From the NCBI GenBank assembly GCA_029194675.1, contig JARFXP010000002.1, forward strand, positions 930,001-994,000: DNA of 64,000 nucleotides. The letters run 5' to 3'. Of the stretch, positions 15,777 to 20,091 are shown in pieces (the stretch's first letter is position 1; the number at the start of each line of letters is the position of its first letter). This stretch comes from Nitrospira sp. Lineage in GTDB: Bacteria > Nitrospirota > Nitrospiria > Nitrospirales > Nitrospiraceae. The notes under the pieces are model-generated. The model saw only the letters and a program-made list of their open reading frames with translations. It ran no database searches and was not told where the DNA came from. Made by a program: the position numbers and the translations under genes.

Positions 15777-16214
15777 ATGGAGGTTATTCGAAAGTCTTTT
15801 GATGCGTTTGGTATGGTGGGATGGTTCATTACTGCGCTCGTCGCAGTCGTGCAGGCCGCTGAAGGCTCAGAGCCTGGCCCACCGACTGTCGTCCCAATTT
15901 CGCCTGATGGGGTCCAGCGCGCCACGGTCATTCTTGACAGCTATTCCTATTCGCCGAACCATCTGGTTGTGGAAAAGGGGAAGCCGGTTGAGCTGACTCT
16001 GACGAGCGTCACGACCATTACGCCACATAACTTTATCATCAAAGATCCGGCCAACAGCTTGTCGGTTGAACAGGACGTCGGAGCCGGGAGGACTGTCATG
16101 GCCAGATTCGTCCCGACTCAGCCTGGCCTCTTTCCGTTCTTTTGCGATAAACGATTGTGGCCCATGCCCAGTCATCGGGACAAAGGGATGGAAGGATTAC
16201 TGGAAGTCAAGTAA
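15777..16214 (+). CDS. Cupredoxin-like copper protein, exported
   Basis: A 145-residue protein with a signal peptide (hydrophobic 13-25, cleavage near VVQAAEG) and a cupredoxin fold. Probable type 1 copper ligands are H84 (TPHNF), C123 (FFCDK), H133 (PSHRD) and M138 (KGMEG). It may carry electrons in the periplasm. Its stop shares a base with the start of the squalene synthase gene (TAATG), so the two are translated together, an unexpected pairing. The ATG at 15777 is the first in frame and gives a good signal peptide. Confidence 0.85.
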   Translation: MEVIRKSFDAFGMVGWFITALVAVVQAAEGSEPGPPTVVPISPDGVQRATVILDSYSYSPNHLVVEKGKPVELTLTSVTTITPHNFIIKDPANSLSVEQDVGAGRTVMARFVPTQPGLFPFFCDKRLWPMPSHRDKGMEGLLEVK

Positions 16215-17266
16215 TGGCTCTCTCCGCGACGACCGCTACTTCCAAACCTGAGCTGCTTCGCGACCTTCTCAAACAGGTCTCGCGTCTATTCTACACGACA
16301 TTGGTTGTCGTGCCGGCGAATGTGCGTGATCAAGTGAGTTTGGCCTATCTCTTTGCTCGGGCCGCCGATACGATTGCCGATGCGGAACTGATCGACCGAT
16401 CGCGTCGTCTAGGTTTTCTCAACCGCCTCAGAGAGCAATTTGTCGGTGATCAGATCGATTGGACACAGATCCTTACGATTCAGCAGGCTATGGGGCCGCT
16501 TCAACAAGATTCGGCTGAACGAATCCTGCTCGAGCGGCTGGACGAGTGTTTCCGGCTCTTCCTCGACTTTTCGTCGGACGACCGACGTCGGATTCAGCGG
16601 GTGATGACGACCCTGACGCAAGGAATGGAAATGGATCTGGGCACGTTCCCTGGAAATTCCGTGGCGGATCTCACCGCGCTCAAGACGCTCGACGACTTAG
16701 ACGGCTATACCTATCACGTAGCTGGATGTGTAGGTGAGTTCTGGACCTCCTTGATGTGTGCCCATCGGAAGGCGTTGGCGAACTGGGATATTCAACGGAT
16801 GTCAGAAGTCGGGGTTCGATTTGGAAAGGGGCTGCAACTGACGAACATCGTCAAAGATATCGCCCATGATCTGCAGAAGGGTCGTTGTTACATTCCCGAA
16901 ATGATGCTCGCCGAAGCGGGGCTTCGGCCTCGAGATTTATTGGATCAGCACAATCTCCCTCCTTTCAAACCTGTGCTGAGCAAACTCGTTCGTCTGGCGG
17001 TCGAGCACCTTGATCAGGGCTGGCTCTATACGATGGCGATTCCGCGTTCTGAAACCCGGTTACGGCTGGCTTGCATGTGGCCGATCCTCTCTGCCGGGGA
17101 ATCGCTCAAGCTGGTCATGCATTCCCCTGATCTTTTGAATCCCGCCGTAAAAGTCAAAATTCCGCGCAGCAAGGTCTATCAGATCATGGTCATGACGACT
17201 GGCACGGTTGCCTGCGGATATGCTGGGACTGCTTACTGGGGATATTTGCGGAAGCAGATTGTGTGA
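16214..17266 (+). CDS. Squalene/phytoene synthase family protein (squalene synthase-like)
   Basis: A 350-residue head-to-head prenyl transferase. The first aspartate motif is ADTIAD (D52, D56). The second is NIVKDIAHDL near 215, and YCYHVAG-like YTYHVAGCVGEFW lies near 160-172. The C-terminal 25 residues are hydrophobic (TGTVACGYAGTAYWGYL), a membrane anchor found in eukaryotic-type squalene synthases but absent from most bacterial HpnC/HpnD proteins. It likely makes squalene from two farnesyl diphosphates for hopanoids. The ATG overlaps the stop of the cupredoxin gene by one base. Confidence 0.88.
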   Translation: MALSATTATSKPELLRDLLKQVSRLFYTTLVVVPANVRDQVSLAYLFARAADTIADAELIDRSRRLGFLNRLREQFVGDQIDWTQILTIQQAMGPLQQDSAERILLERLDECFRLFLDFSSDDRRRIQRVMTTLTQGMEMDLGTFPGNSVADLTALKTLDDLDGYTYHVAGCVGEFWTSLMCAHRKALANWDIQRMSEVGVRFGKGLQLTNIVKDIAHDLQKGRCYIPEMMLAEAGLRPRDLLDQHNLPPFKPVLSKLVRLAVEHLDQGWLYTMAIPRSETRLRLACMWPILSAGESLKLVMHSPDLLNPAVKVKIPRSKVYQIMVMTTGTVACGYAGTAYWGYLRKQIV

Positions 17267-17342: not shown

Positions 17343-17645
17343 CTAGCCAGTCTTCTTCTGTGGCTCCAACAGCTTGTCGCCCTTTTTGAAGACGGCATAG
17401 ATCGCTTGTGAGGGACATGCGTCCAGGCAGAGCCGGCAACTTTCCAGGCAGCGGGATGGATCGAACTTGTAGGGCGGCGTCGAGAGCCAGGCGCCGGTCG
17501 GGCAAATGGGGACACAGATTGCCTGGTGTGTGCAGCGGTCGGGATGGCGGACGAGATGATCACGAACGACCAACATGGGTTTGACTCCTTCAAAGAGACC
17601 TTGCGAGAAGATCTCGAACATGTTTCTATTCGGGAGGCTGCTCAC
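17343..17645 (-). CDS. Ferredoxin-like iron-sulfur protein with an incomplete first cluster
   Basis: A 100-residue protein with two cluster motifs. The second (CLESCRLCLDACP) has four cysteines for a [4Fe-4S] cluster. The first (CTHQAICVPICP) has only three, with glutamine where the second cysteine should be, so it may hold a [3Fe-4S] cluster or none. The GTG start at 17645 was chosen because it overlaps the previous stop as GTGA and follows AAGGA at good spacing. A TTG six bases upstream and an internal ATG at 17621 are alternatives. It is last of four co-directional genes. Confidence 0.8.
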   Translation of the reverse strand: MSSLPNRNMFEIFSQGLFEGVKPMLVVRDHLVRHPDRCTHQAICVPICPTGAWLSTPPYKFDPSRCLESCRLCLDACPSQAIYAVFKKGDKLLEPQKKTG

Positions 17646-18055
17646 TTCCAATCCTTCACGAGTTCTTTGAGCCGTTCTTTGAGCTCAGGTATCTGTTCCA
17701 GGTTATTGTGAATCGCACCCAGAATCTTTTCCAGCCTGGCGACTCTCAACGTTTCCTTGTCTTTCTTCGCTAATCGATCGTACTCCTCATAAGCTGCTTG
17801 GTGTGCCGGTTCCAGTTGTGCGCGAGCATCGACGAGAGCCTGTCCGAGTGTCCAGGGTTCAGGTGAAAGCGCGGAAACAACGGTAAAGGTTGCATCGCTA
17901 CAAACAATCACGGCGGCACCGGGTTTTCCGGTCAAGGGAATCACAGCCTGGATGGCTTTGCCTTCGAACGATTTCCAGTCCAGCAGCAGCCCTGGAAACC
18001 GTTTTGTGAAGGCCACCTTTTCCATGTTGGCCTTCCATTTGTCTTCTGTCGGCAT
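17642..18055 (-). CDS. Conserved-looking hypothetical protein, helical C-terminus
   Basis: A 137-residue soluble protein. The first half appears mixed alpha/beta with a hydrophobic strand (GAAVIVCSDATFTVVSAL). The second half is a charged helix likely to form a coiled coil (AKKDKETLRVARLEKILGAI onward). I do not recognise the family. It overlaps the ferredoxin gene by four bases and follows the [2Fe-2S] ferredoxin gene by 21, so it probably serves the same redox task. Confidence 0.7.
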   Translation of the reverse strand: MPTEDKWKANMEKVAFTKRFPGLLLDWKSFEGKAIQAVIPLTGKPGAAVIVCSDATFTVVSALSPEPWTLGQALVDARAQLEPAHQAAYEEYDRLAKKDKETLRVARLEKILGAIHNNLEQIPELKERLKELVKDWK

Positions 18056-18076
18056 GGAAATGATCGTAGGGAAGTC

Positions 18077-18430
18077 CTATGGCGTCTTGATGAGGGCCAA
18101 TCGTTCCGGAACCGGATGATCAGGCATGAGCAATCGCGTGACGATCTCGCCCTTCAGAACATGCCGTTCCATGATCTCGGTGACGTCGGCTTCTGTACCG
18201 ACCCAGTACCACACTCCCTCAGGATAAATCACCACACTGGGCCCCAGATCGCAATGGTCCAGACAGCCGGCTTTATTGGCTCGAACAAGACCTTTGAGAT
18301 TCAACCGTTTTGTTTCATTCTTGAAATGCGCGTGGAGTTTTTCCGAGCCTAGGTTTGCACAACAGCCGCGCGGGTCGTCTTTGGGACGCTGGTTTGTACA
18401 CACGAAGATGTGACGTTGAAATGGTGGCAT
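18077..18430 (-). CDS. Thioredoxin-like [2Fe-2S] ferredoxin
   Basis: A 117-residue protein of the thioredoxin-like [2Fe-2S] group. The start HIFVCTNQRP, with RGCCANLGSE and NKAGCLDHCDLGP, provides the cysteines at about 11, 23/24, 56 and 60 that bind the cluster. VVIYPEGVWY is the usual strand after the second pair. It passes electrons in the cytosol; the partner is unknown. It sits between a zinc-ribbon protein and an unknown gene in one operon. Confidence 0.92.
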   Translation of the reverse strand: MPPFQRHIFVCTNQRPKDDPRGCCANLGSEKLHAHFKNETKRLNLKGLVRANKAGCLDHCDLGPSVVIYPEGVWYWVGTEADVTEIMERHVLKGEIVTRLLMPDHPVPERLALIKTP

Positions 18431-18443
18431 AGCGATGTAGCAA

Positions 18444-18827
18444 CTATACCCGCATGGTGAGAGTATTGAGCCGTTCCATCAGTAGCATGACATCCCGGCC
18501 GTTTAGGAACGGAGATTGCTGTTGGGTTTCCTTCAAGATAGCCATGATTTCCTGTAACCTCAATGACGCGTGTCGGAACTCATCGGCGTTCGAGATCTCC
18601 GACCCTTGACCAGCGCTCAGTTTGTCGAACTCGGCCCGGATATCGCGAAAATCCCGCTGCAAGTTCTTGTGAACCGAGCAAGTGACACAATACCATTTCG
18701 GGTTCTGCTCTGATGACGGCGACAGACGATCGTAGGGACGGCCGAAAAAGTCTTTCCCCAGCGAAAATTTTGTGAGCGGCCCCCCGGAGGTTCCGCAAGC
18801 CTGACACGATCCGTTTCCGGAGTCCAT
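18444..18827 (-). CDS. Small protein with two CxxC pairs (probable zinc site)
   Basis: A 127-residue protein. CQACG near residue 8 and CVTCS near 44 suggest a zinc ribbon. The remainder is a helical, charged region with DIRAEFDKL and MLLMERLNTL. The start at 18827 (ATG before DSGNG) was chosen because GGAGG lies five bases ahead; that GGAGG falls inside the longer reading starting at 18839. It heads the four-gene set with the two ferredoxins. The family is not recognised. Confidence 0.72.
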   Translation of the reverse strand: MDSGNGSCQACGTSGGPLTKFSLGKDFFGRPYDRLSPSSEQNPKWYCVTCSVHKNLQRDFRDIRAEFDKLSAGQGSEISNADEFRHASLRLQEIMAILKETQQQSPFLNGRDVMLLMERLNTLTMRV

Positions 18828-18987
18828 CCACACCTCCATAAGAGACACTGAGAGTTTGTATTTTACAACAGGCCTTTCCAGACTGTCCACGAGCAGATGG
18901 TGCGGCAGGCAACTGATTACTCCGGGTATCGAGGTATAATGACATCATCAGGCTTGCAGCACTCCTAGCCGGAAAGGGGGAACCTAT

Positions 18988-20091
18988 ATGGTCATCGGCG
19001 TCCCAAAAGAAATCAAGGATCACGAGTATCGTGTCAGTCTTACCCCTGAAGGTGCAGCGACATTGTGTCAAATGGGGCATGAGGTCTGGCTCGAACCGTC
19101 CGCCGGACAGGGCAGTGGATTTAGCGATGACGAGTATCGCAAGGCCGGTGCCACGATTGCCAATTCGAAGAGCGAGGTATTCAAGAAAGCTGATTTGATT
19201 CTGAAGGTCAAAGAGCCGTTGCTTTGTGAGTGCCATCTGTTTCGTCCGGGCCAGGTCCTGTTCACCTACTTACATCTCGCCGCACTGCCGGATGTGACCA
19301 AGGCGCTTCTGAGTAGCAAGATTACGGCTATCGCGTATGAAACCACCGAGTCGAAAGACGGCAGTCTTCCGATACTCAAGCCGATGAGTGAAATCGCCGG
19401 GCGGATGTCTGTGCAGATCGGCGCACGGTATCTGGAGACAATCCACGGGGGGCGAGGTGTCTTGTTGGGAGGGGTTCCGGGAGTGGATCCGGGCAAGGTC
19501 GTCGTGCTTGGTGCTGGCGTAGTGGGAAGCTCGGCGATTCGCATCGCGGTCGGAATGGGAGCTCAGGTGAGGGTGATCAATTTGGATGTTGAACGGCTGC
19601 GGTATCTCGATGATCAGTACCAGGGGCGGATTATCACGTGCGCTGTGAGCTCCGCTACCATTGAAGAGGCTGTGTGCTCAGCTGATCTTGTCATCGGCGC
19701 CGTGCTGATCCCCGGCGCCAAGGCGCCCAAAGTGGTGTCGCGTTCGCTGGTCTCTCGGATGAAGCCTGGGTCGGTGATCGTGGATGTTTCGGTCGATCAG
19801 GGCGGTTGTGTTGAGACGACGAGACCGACGACTCACTCGGAGCCCGTCTATGTCGTCGATAGGGTTGTTCACTATTGTGTGGCCAATATGCCTGGAATCG
19901 TCCCTCGTACGTCAACCTATGCCCTCACCAATGCGACGTTGCCGTATCTGCTGCGACTCGCGTCGGAGGGCATAGAGCACGCGATTCACGCTGATCCGGG
20001 ATTAGCCAAGGGAGTCAATCTCAAGGATGGGAAGGTTACTCATCGAGCAGTGGCGGAAGCTCACGGGTTGCCTTTTACCCCTGTCTTGTAA
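18988..20091 (+). CDS. ald: Alanine dehydrogenase
   Basis: A 367-residue cytosolic enzyme that interconverts alanine and pyruvate plus ammonia with NAD. The family start MVIGVPKEIKDHEYRVSLTP is exact. Catalytic lysine and histidine lie at about 74 (LKVKEPL) and 95 (TYLHLA). The NAD loop is VVLGAGVVGSSA near 173-184. VDVSVDQGGC and NMPGIVPRTST are also typical. Next to a urea-to-ammonia system it could help to assimilate or release ammonia. The AAAGGGGG site precedes the ATG. Confidence 0.97.
   Translation: MVIGVPKEIKDHEYRVSLTPEGAATLCQMGHEVWLEPSAGQGSGFSDDEYRKAGATIANSKSEVFKKADLILKVKEPLLCECHLFRPGQVLFTYLHLAALPDVTKALLSSKITAIAYETTESKDGSLPILKPMSEIAGRMSVQIGARYLETIHGGRGVLLGGVPGVDPGKVVVLGAGVVGSSAIRIAVGMGAQVRVINLDVERLRYLDDQYQGRIITCAVSSATIEEAVCSADLVIGAVLIPGAKAPKVVSRSLVSRMKPGSVIVDVSVDQGGCVETTRPTTHSEPVYVVDRVVHYCVANMPGIVPRTSTYALTNATLPYLLRLASEGIEHAIHADPGLAKGVNLKDGKVTHRAVAEAHGLPFTPVL

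Follow-up and report, generated by a model that had tools for sequence, protein, structure and literature searches.

The closest described counterpart that we found to the locus analyzed here is the FeSI operon of Azotobacter vinelandii, in which, according to passages of its published account, the gene for a predicted [4Fe-4S] ferredoxin precedes that for a thioredoxin-like [2Fe-2S] protein and both are grouped with genes of unknown function (PMC8561814). The likeness between that ferredoxin (Avin_01510) and FDX, introduced below, is one of gene arrangement, and the genomic settings differ: FeSI belongs to the nif region, whereas the pair described here is flanked by genes for alanine dehydrogenase and a terpenoid synthase. 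Among [4Fe-4S] ferredoxins, signatures of the 7Fe type account for 27-30% in aerobes compared to 7.8% in facultative microbes, as given in sections of a published survey (PMC7039249). The low-potential electron transfer into which such carriers could fit is a recognized problem in Nitrospira. As set out in parts of the respective reports, the 2M-type complex I gene cluster of Nitrospira moscoviensis lacks nuoH, nuoE and nuoF (PMC6606698), and a separate, highly expressed cluster consists of nuoF, a ferredoxin gene and a gene for an Fe-S insertion protein (PMC6606698, PMC8407350). The 2M complex, which is widespread in the order Nitrospirales according to an excerpt of a further study (PMC10579370), is proposed in the same parts to be the ferredoxin reducer, with no mechanism shown there (PMC6606698, PMC8407350); one of these texts states that no other mechanism of ferredoxin reduction was identifiable (PMC6606698), and the other calls the reduction of the low-potential carrier for CO2 fixation in Nitrospira unknown (PMC8407350).

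The window, i.e., the whole stretch of 64,000 nucleotides that was analyzed, comes from a 5.2-Mb Nitrospira genome and contains four closely spaced genes that we denote ZNR, TRX, HEL and FDX, in this order, with intergenic gaps of 13-21 bp (Table 1). The gene content and coordinates assigned to this set in the preliminary description are borne out by the open reading frames and the sequence. In 94 of 96 FDX homologs, a methionine is present at the position of the ATG at 17621; an alternative TTG start at 17651 is possible. Scans for promoters and terminators at the locus gave no matches above chance. The operon contains no enzyme gene, and its constant flanking genes are on the opposite strand. 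In the literature covered by our search (main texts without supplements, few of them from subscription journals), no description of the ZNR-TRX-HEL-FDX gene set was found.

Table 1. Features of the locus, in window coordinates, and their conservation. Median identities (same genus / other members of family f1 / family f2) are to the window protein, for matches with a query coverage of 70% or more, with the number of loci varying by gene; dN/dS (Nei-Gojobori) compares the window with six genomes of the same genus for five genes, alanine dehydrogenase being left out. The two 115-aa ferredoxins are in the same genome, with coordinates within the loci named.
Feature	Position	Strand	Description	Median identity (%)	dN/dS
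Squalene/phytoene synthase-family gene	16157-17266	plus	convergent flank; syntenic neighbor, outside the four-gene set	83.2/62.7/53.3	0.084-0.128
FDX	17343-17621	minus	92-aa dicluster ferredoxin; ATG start (open reading frames, homologs)	95.6/93.3/78.2	0.012-0.026
HEL	17642-18055	minus	137 aa, no known family; predicted helix, three strands, long C-terminal helix	75.2/60.6/47.4	0.073-0.208
TRX	18077-18430	minus	117-aa thioredoxin-like [2Fe-2S] ferredoxin; kin of Aquifex ferredoxin and Azotobacter Shethna protein I	89.7/75.2/73.0	0.025-0.076
ZNR	18444-18827	minus	127-aa zinc-ribbon-like protein, CxxC...CxxC	71.5/60.3/absent	0.120-0.287 (five pairs, sixth saturated)
Promoter-like match 5' of ZNR	18860-18889	minus	TGGACA-18-TAAAAT; 1 found vs 0.9 expected		
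Alanine dehydrogenase	18988-20091	plus	divergent flank; syntenic neighbor, outside the four-gene set	77.7/72.8/59.0	
115-aa ferredoxin	L176 1477-1824 (G000:C5)		dicluster, full cysteines		
115-aa ferredoxin	L178 1378-1725 (G000:C3)		dicluster, full cysteines		

The first motif of FDX reads C30-T-H-Q33-A-I-C36-V-P-I-C40-P (CxHQxxCxPxCP) and the second C58-L-E-S-C62-R-L-C65-L-D-A-C69-P (CxxxCxxCxxxCP). The original observation that the first motif has only three cysteines, here with Q in place of the second, extends to every readable homolog. Among 97 homologs read from DNA, 96 could be counted (in the remaining one, motif 1 falls in an N gap), and in these position 33, equivalent to Cys II, is occupied by Q (66), N (21), K (8) or S (1) and never by C; C30, H32, C36, P38, C40 and P41 are invariant in all 96. 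The second motif is intact in 95 of the 95 complete copies, the 96th ending at a contig edge. The absence of cysteine there from all 96 shows that the loss of Cys II is neither chance nor sequencing error. Pfam cut-offs exceeded by FDX include those of Fer4_7, Fer4_6 and Fer4, with 38.1 bits against a cut-off of 27 for the dicluster domain Fer4_7.

Under the usual dicluster wiring, which we take to apply here, site I would be formed by C30, C36 and C69, and site II by C58, C62, C65 and C40. The cysteine complement is then of the 7Fe kind, with three at site I (96/96) and four at site II (95/95), the sites being assigned from family knowledge. The variable Q/N/K/S at position 33 argues against a fixed ligand, so that the natural reading is either a [3Fe-4S] cluster or one of the [4Fe-4S] type with solvent or another ligand at one corner. 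By analogy with other three-cysteine sites, site I most likely holds a [3Fe-4S] cluster, or else a [4Fe-4S] cluster that has an open corner or a ligand other than cysteine and might interconvert with the [3Fe-4S] form. Site II would carry a [4Fe-4S] cluster. This assignment is the firmer half of our view of FDX as a 7Fe carrier paired with TRX, the target enzyme being the less settled part. The structure model of FDX (pLDDT 40) was unusable.

The invariant His32 (96/96; codon 17526-17528, minus strand) lies two residues past the first cluster cysteine, beside the replaced one, and is a possible cluster ligand or hydrogen-bond donor. A three-cysteine site with an invariant histidine next to the variable position 33 would also be compatible with a labile or empty site I and a role of FDX as a sensor or cluster-transfer protein instead of a carrier. 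We regard this as very unlikely, given that no DNA-binding or cluster-assembly gene is present in the operon, that the constraint spans the whole of FDX, and that the linkage to TRX suggests a redox function.

Among the characterized ferredoxin families, FDX falls short of the cut-offs for the FdxA 7Fe equivalog (NF045490, 26.2 bits vs 135) and for NuoI (TIGR01971, 20.8 vs 113.05 bits). Like the 7Fe ferredoxin FdI of A. vinelandii ([3Fe-4S][4Fe-4S]), it has two ferredoxin motifs but not the full complement of cysteines at site I, and local PDB matches to the 7Fe ferredoxins 1axq, 2fd2 and 1ff2 were detected with E values of 6e-5 to 1.4e-3. Unlike FdI, it has a C-x5-C-x3-CP arrangement with Q, N, K or S at Cys II and a CxxxC spacing in motif 2; presumably, the spacing is nearer to that of the CxxDxxC ferredoxins than to FdI. 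The best PDB sequence match is 6cfw_N, a subunit of the NADH-plastoquinone-oxidoreductase type (E=2.1e-5). The only PHROG matched (E=1.3e-5) has no known function, and we take this to be a general ferredoxin match. FDX is best filed as an order-specific variant of the dicluster/7Fe-type ferredoxins.

TRX matches the [2Fe-2S] ferredoxin of Aquifex (1f37, E=1.2e-19) as well as 5abr (E=1e-15), which we take to be Shethna protein I of A. vinelandii; its kin also includes the thioredoxin-like [2Fe-2S] ferredoxin of Clostridium pasteurianum. With four ligand cysteines kept in 99 of 99 sequences and a solved homolog, TRX qualifies as a thioredoxin-like [2Fe-2S] protein, albeit below the curated cut-offs of NF041612 (80.2/150 bits), NF041613 (79.1/195) and PF01257 (15.5/24.8). 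A second, more distant TRX match is found elsewhere in most genomes of the order.

The other two proteins are less tractable. For HEL, there was no Pfam or NCBIfam match above the cut-off (best E values 0.01 and 0.074) and no PHROG match at E<=0.01, and a PDB profile search returned only ribosomal L29-type chains and one uncharacterized protein (E 0.59-0.84). The HEL model (pLDDT 91.8), for which Foldseek gave no match at E<=0.001 and the best VIA Z score was 5.1, contains helices, in keeping with the initial label of a helical protein, but three strands too. ZNR, in which the CxxC..CxxC pattern is present in 76 of 78 sequences, had no library match above the cut-off.

We analyzed 295 Nitrospirota genomes, 98 of which belong to the order Nitrospirales (three families). 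FDX has a single match in each of 97 order genomes and none in the 197 other sampled genomes at E<=1e-8. The set that the preliminary description proposed to look for across Nitrospirota is indeed conserved throughout the order: TRX is encoded on the same strand within 2 kb of FDX at 96 of the 97 FDX loci (the exception being the N-gap locus, L112), HEL is present at 92 (missing in four and at the N-gap locus), and ZNR at 78, being absent from 19, including all 18 f2 loci. No homologs combining four cysteines in the first motif with a lack of operon conservation emerged. The matched stretches of HEL and FDX are 23-37 bp apart in 90 of 92 loci. The other two, which represent two of the three loci of the f2 genus g16, have spacings of 146 and 152 bp compared to the typical ~25 (L090 5455-5599 and L099 5643-5793). 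The four genomes without HEL at the locus (G165, G282, G242 and G133), where no HEL was found elsewhere either at E<=1e-5, retain TRX and FDX, with matched stretches 41-134 bp apart, and TRX-FDX is therefore the core. Thus, four close genes are present as first described, but 'four-gene set' is too wide a term for what is stably maintained.

The flanks are also constant, with the squalene/phytoene synthase-family gene convergent at 87 of 97 FDX loci and alanine dehydrogenase divergent at 90 of 97, some loci being cut short; because of this stability, synteny alone is weak evidence, and linkage is better supported by the separate losses of HEL and by a spacing that stays short throughout. The near-constant synthase could be taken to indicate that TRX and FDX feed a reaction outside rTCA, e.g., a ferredoxin-dependent enzyme of biosynthesis, possibly one of the terpenoid pathway to which this neighbor belongs. 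We consider such a role unlikely: the synthase is on the other strand, its synteny is expected by descent, and alanine dehydrogenase is as constant.

To characterize the limits of this distribution, 23 genomes without FDX (15 class relatives, seven genomes of the distant family f20, and G286, the only order genome concerned) were searched with an FDX profile. In 15 of these, matches at E<=0.01 (best 1e-5) were obtained, all in open frames of at least 171 aa, which we take to be general ferredoxin-domain matches. Searches of G286 likewise gave no operon-type TRX, no HEL and no alanine dehydrogenase of the flank, so the region is either absent from the assembly or was lost as a whole. HEL has a wider range, being detected in 110 of the 295 genomes (92 of the order, 11 class relatives and seven of f20). 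At three of the 11 class HEL loci (L113-L115), HEL is paired with TRX (in L113, HEL comes before TRX), and clustering of the open reading frames of these 11 loci revealed, besides HEL, no family common to more than four. Given this TRX-HEL pair in loci without FDX, FDX seems to have joined an older pair in the ancestor of the order. In f20, the genes near HEL include nadA-, asd-, leuB- and leuA-like genes (named by eye).

A scan of public genomes with two short peptide patterns yielded 319 stretches with 166 relatives, of which the best 80 were kept. All of these 80 come from records labeled Nitrospira, Nitrospiraceae, Nitrospirae or Nitrospirota, except for two 'Nitrosospira sp.' titles (L245, L251) that we take for mislabels; all four genes are present in 79, and ZNR is missing in one. 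With two patterns and the best 80 of 166 relatives kept, distant FDX homologs in other phyla are possible. Because the whole distribution was surveyed within a single clade, shared descent confounds the co-occurrence. Nitrite oxidation was considered as the cause of the FDX range and set aside, since the type II DMSO-reductase beta subunit mirrors this range in a way inseparable from descent. It matches in 70 of 98 order genomes, G286 included, but in no genome among the 15 other members of the class; all 70 matches are below the family cut-off, and for one of them (G169) only a longer frame (523 aa) of another kind is seen.

FDX has the lowest dN/dS range of the five genes compared, with one TRX pair (0.025) coming close, and 54 of its 92 columns are at least 97% constant. 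Between families, TRX (73% identity to f2) trails FDX (78%) only slightly. The constraint on FDX could reflect a tightly bound small subunit of a large complex, e.g., the electron-input module of 2M-type complex I, with TRX as a NuoE-like partner. The 6cfw_N match of FDX, the matches of TRX to N-terminal stretches of HydB-type hydrogenase subunits (E 4.5e-13 to 7.9e-6) and the incomplete 2M cluster outlined above point in the same direction. FDX, however, is not encoded with complex I and is far below the NuoI cut-off, and the cluster of nuoF, ferredoxin and Fe-S insertion protein has already been proposed for this role in a part of the published work (PMC6606698), which makes a bound subunit improbable.

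The low-potential enzymes of immediate interest are the 2-oxoacid:ferredoxin oxidoreductases (OFORs). Two five-subunit OFOR operons are present in the genome, both of them including a delta ferredoxin, together with an alpha-beta pair on a small contig. FDX resembles OFOR delta, likewise a small dicluster ferredoxin in which the first CxnC spacing of one motif is expanded, but delta has eight motif cysteines and is encoded within the OFOR operon, whereas FDX lacks one cysteine and is located elsewhere. The possibility that FDX is a missing delta was rejected, the operon on C5 having delta directly after gamma, as do most related operons. Furthermore, relatives in the class and phylum that have epsilon-like and complete OFOR genes do without FDX; hence OFORs as such do not need it. 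Nor is FDX the sole small carrier, because the same genome encodes, in separate places, two near-identical 115-aa dicluster ferredoxins that are similarly small but have eight motif cysteines and an insert, compared to the shorter FDX without Cys II. These, rather than FDX, could serve the OFORs. The small 46-kb contig (G000:C12; L139 / L300-L302) carries, along with the OFOR alpha-beta pair, an IscA-like gene, a NuoI copy, hflC/hflK-like genes and integrase-, transposase- and relaxase-like frames (named by eye), and is possibly a mobile element with low-potential redox genes.

A more direct connection, with FDX or HEL serving OFORs as an additional subunit or by aiding their assembly or protection, is brought to mind by the genomic associations of HEL. 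An OFOR-epsilon-like (CO_dh family) gene lies just upstream of HEL at five of the eight f20 loci (four of seven genomes), and epsilon-like genes are present in 109 of the 110 HEL genomes, HEL being found in only one of 163 epsilon-negative genomes. This link is suggestive but confounded by descent. All 98 order genomes have an epsilon-like gene, and HEL is missing from 23 of the 132 genomes that carry one, the four HEL-less members of the order among them; no other OFOR genes adjoin the copy beside HEL, and each five-subunit OFOR already has a delta. HEL as an OFOR-linked factor was rejected as an account of the data, with the HEL-less order members keeping the epsilon gene and the wider pattern following descent, and we retain the direct connection solely as an alternative with little probability. 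The additional epsilon-like genes 5' of HEL in f20 are those of L126 (4397-5527), L127, L129, L130 and L131, and some f20 genomes have four epsilon-like matches.

The initial proposal that the gene set could provide an uncharacterized electron path, for instance to a low-potential enzyme, is plausible but stays a candidate: the operon has no enzyme gene, the five-subunit OFORs have deltas of their own, and the four HEL-less order members retain the OFOR epsilon gene. FDX, as judged from its cysteine pattern, conservation, gene linkage, distribution and constraint, is probably an overlooked electron carrier. More specifically, we tentatively propose, at somewhat less than even chances, that it is a dedicated cytoplasmic 7Fe-type carrier of Nitrospirales that works with TRX and has low-potential central metabolism as its likeliest user. 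FDX would be co-expressed with the adjacent TRX, and the two proteins could form an electron relay tolerating the oxygen-exposed cytoplasm of aerobes, with the rTCA OFORs, and whatever reduces their ferredoxin, as the likeliest partners; HEL and ZNR would be accessory, perhaps in assembly or docking. A bolder version, in which TRX and FDX, with HEL, are an oxygen-hardened [2Fe-2S]/7Fe connector between 2M-type complex I and the rTCA OFORs that arose when FDX joined the older TRX-HEL pair in the Nitrospirales ancestor, appears to us to have a slim chance of being correct. Order-wide, single-copy and strongly constrained, FDX combines an unusual cluster site with a constant [2Fe-2S] neighbor; it is a concrete candidate for low-potential electron transfer in these bacteria and might serve as a marker gene for the order.
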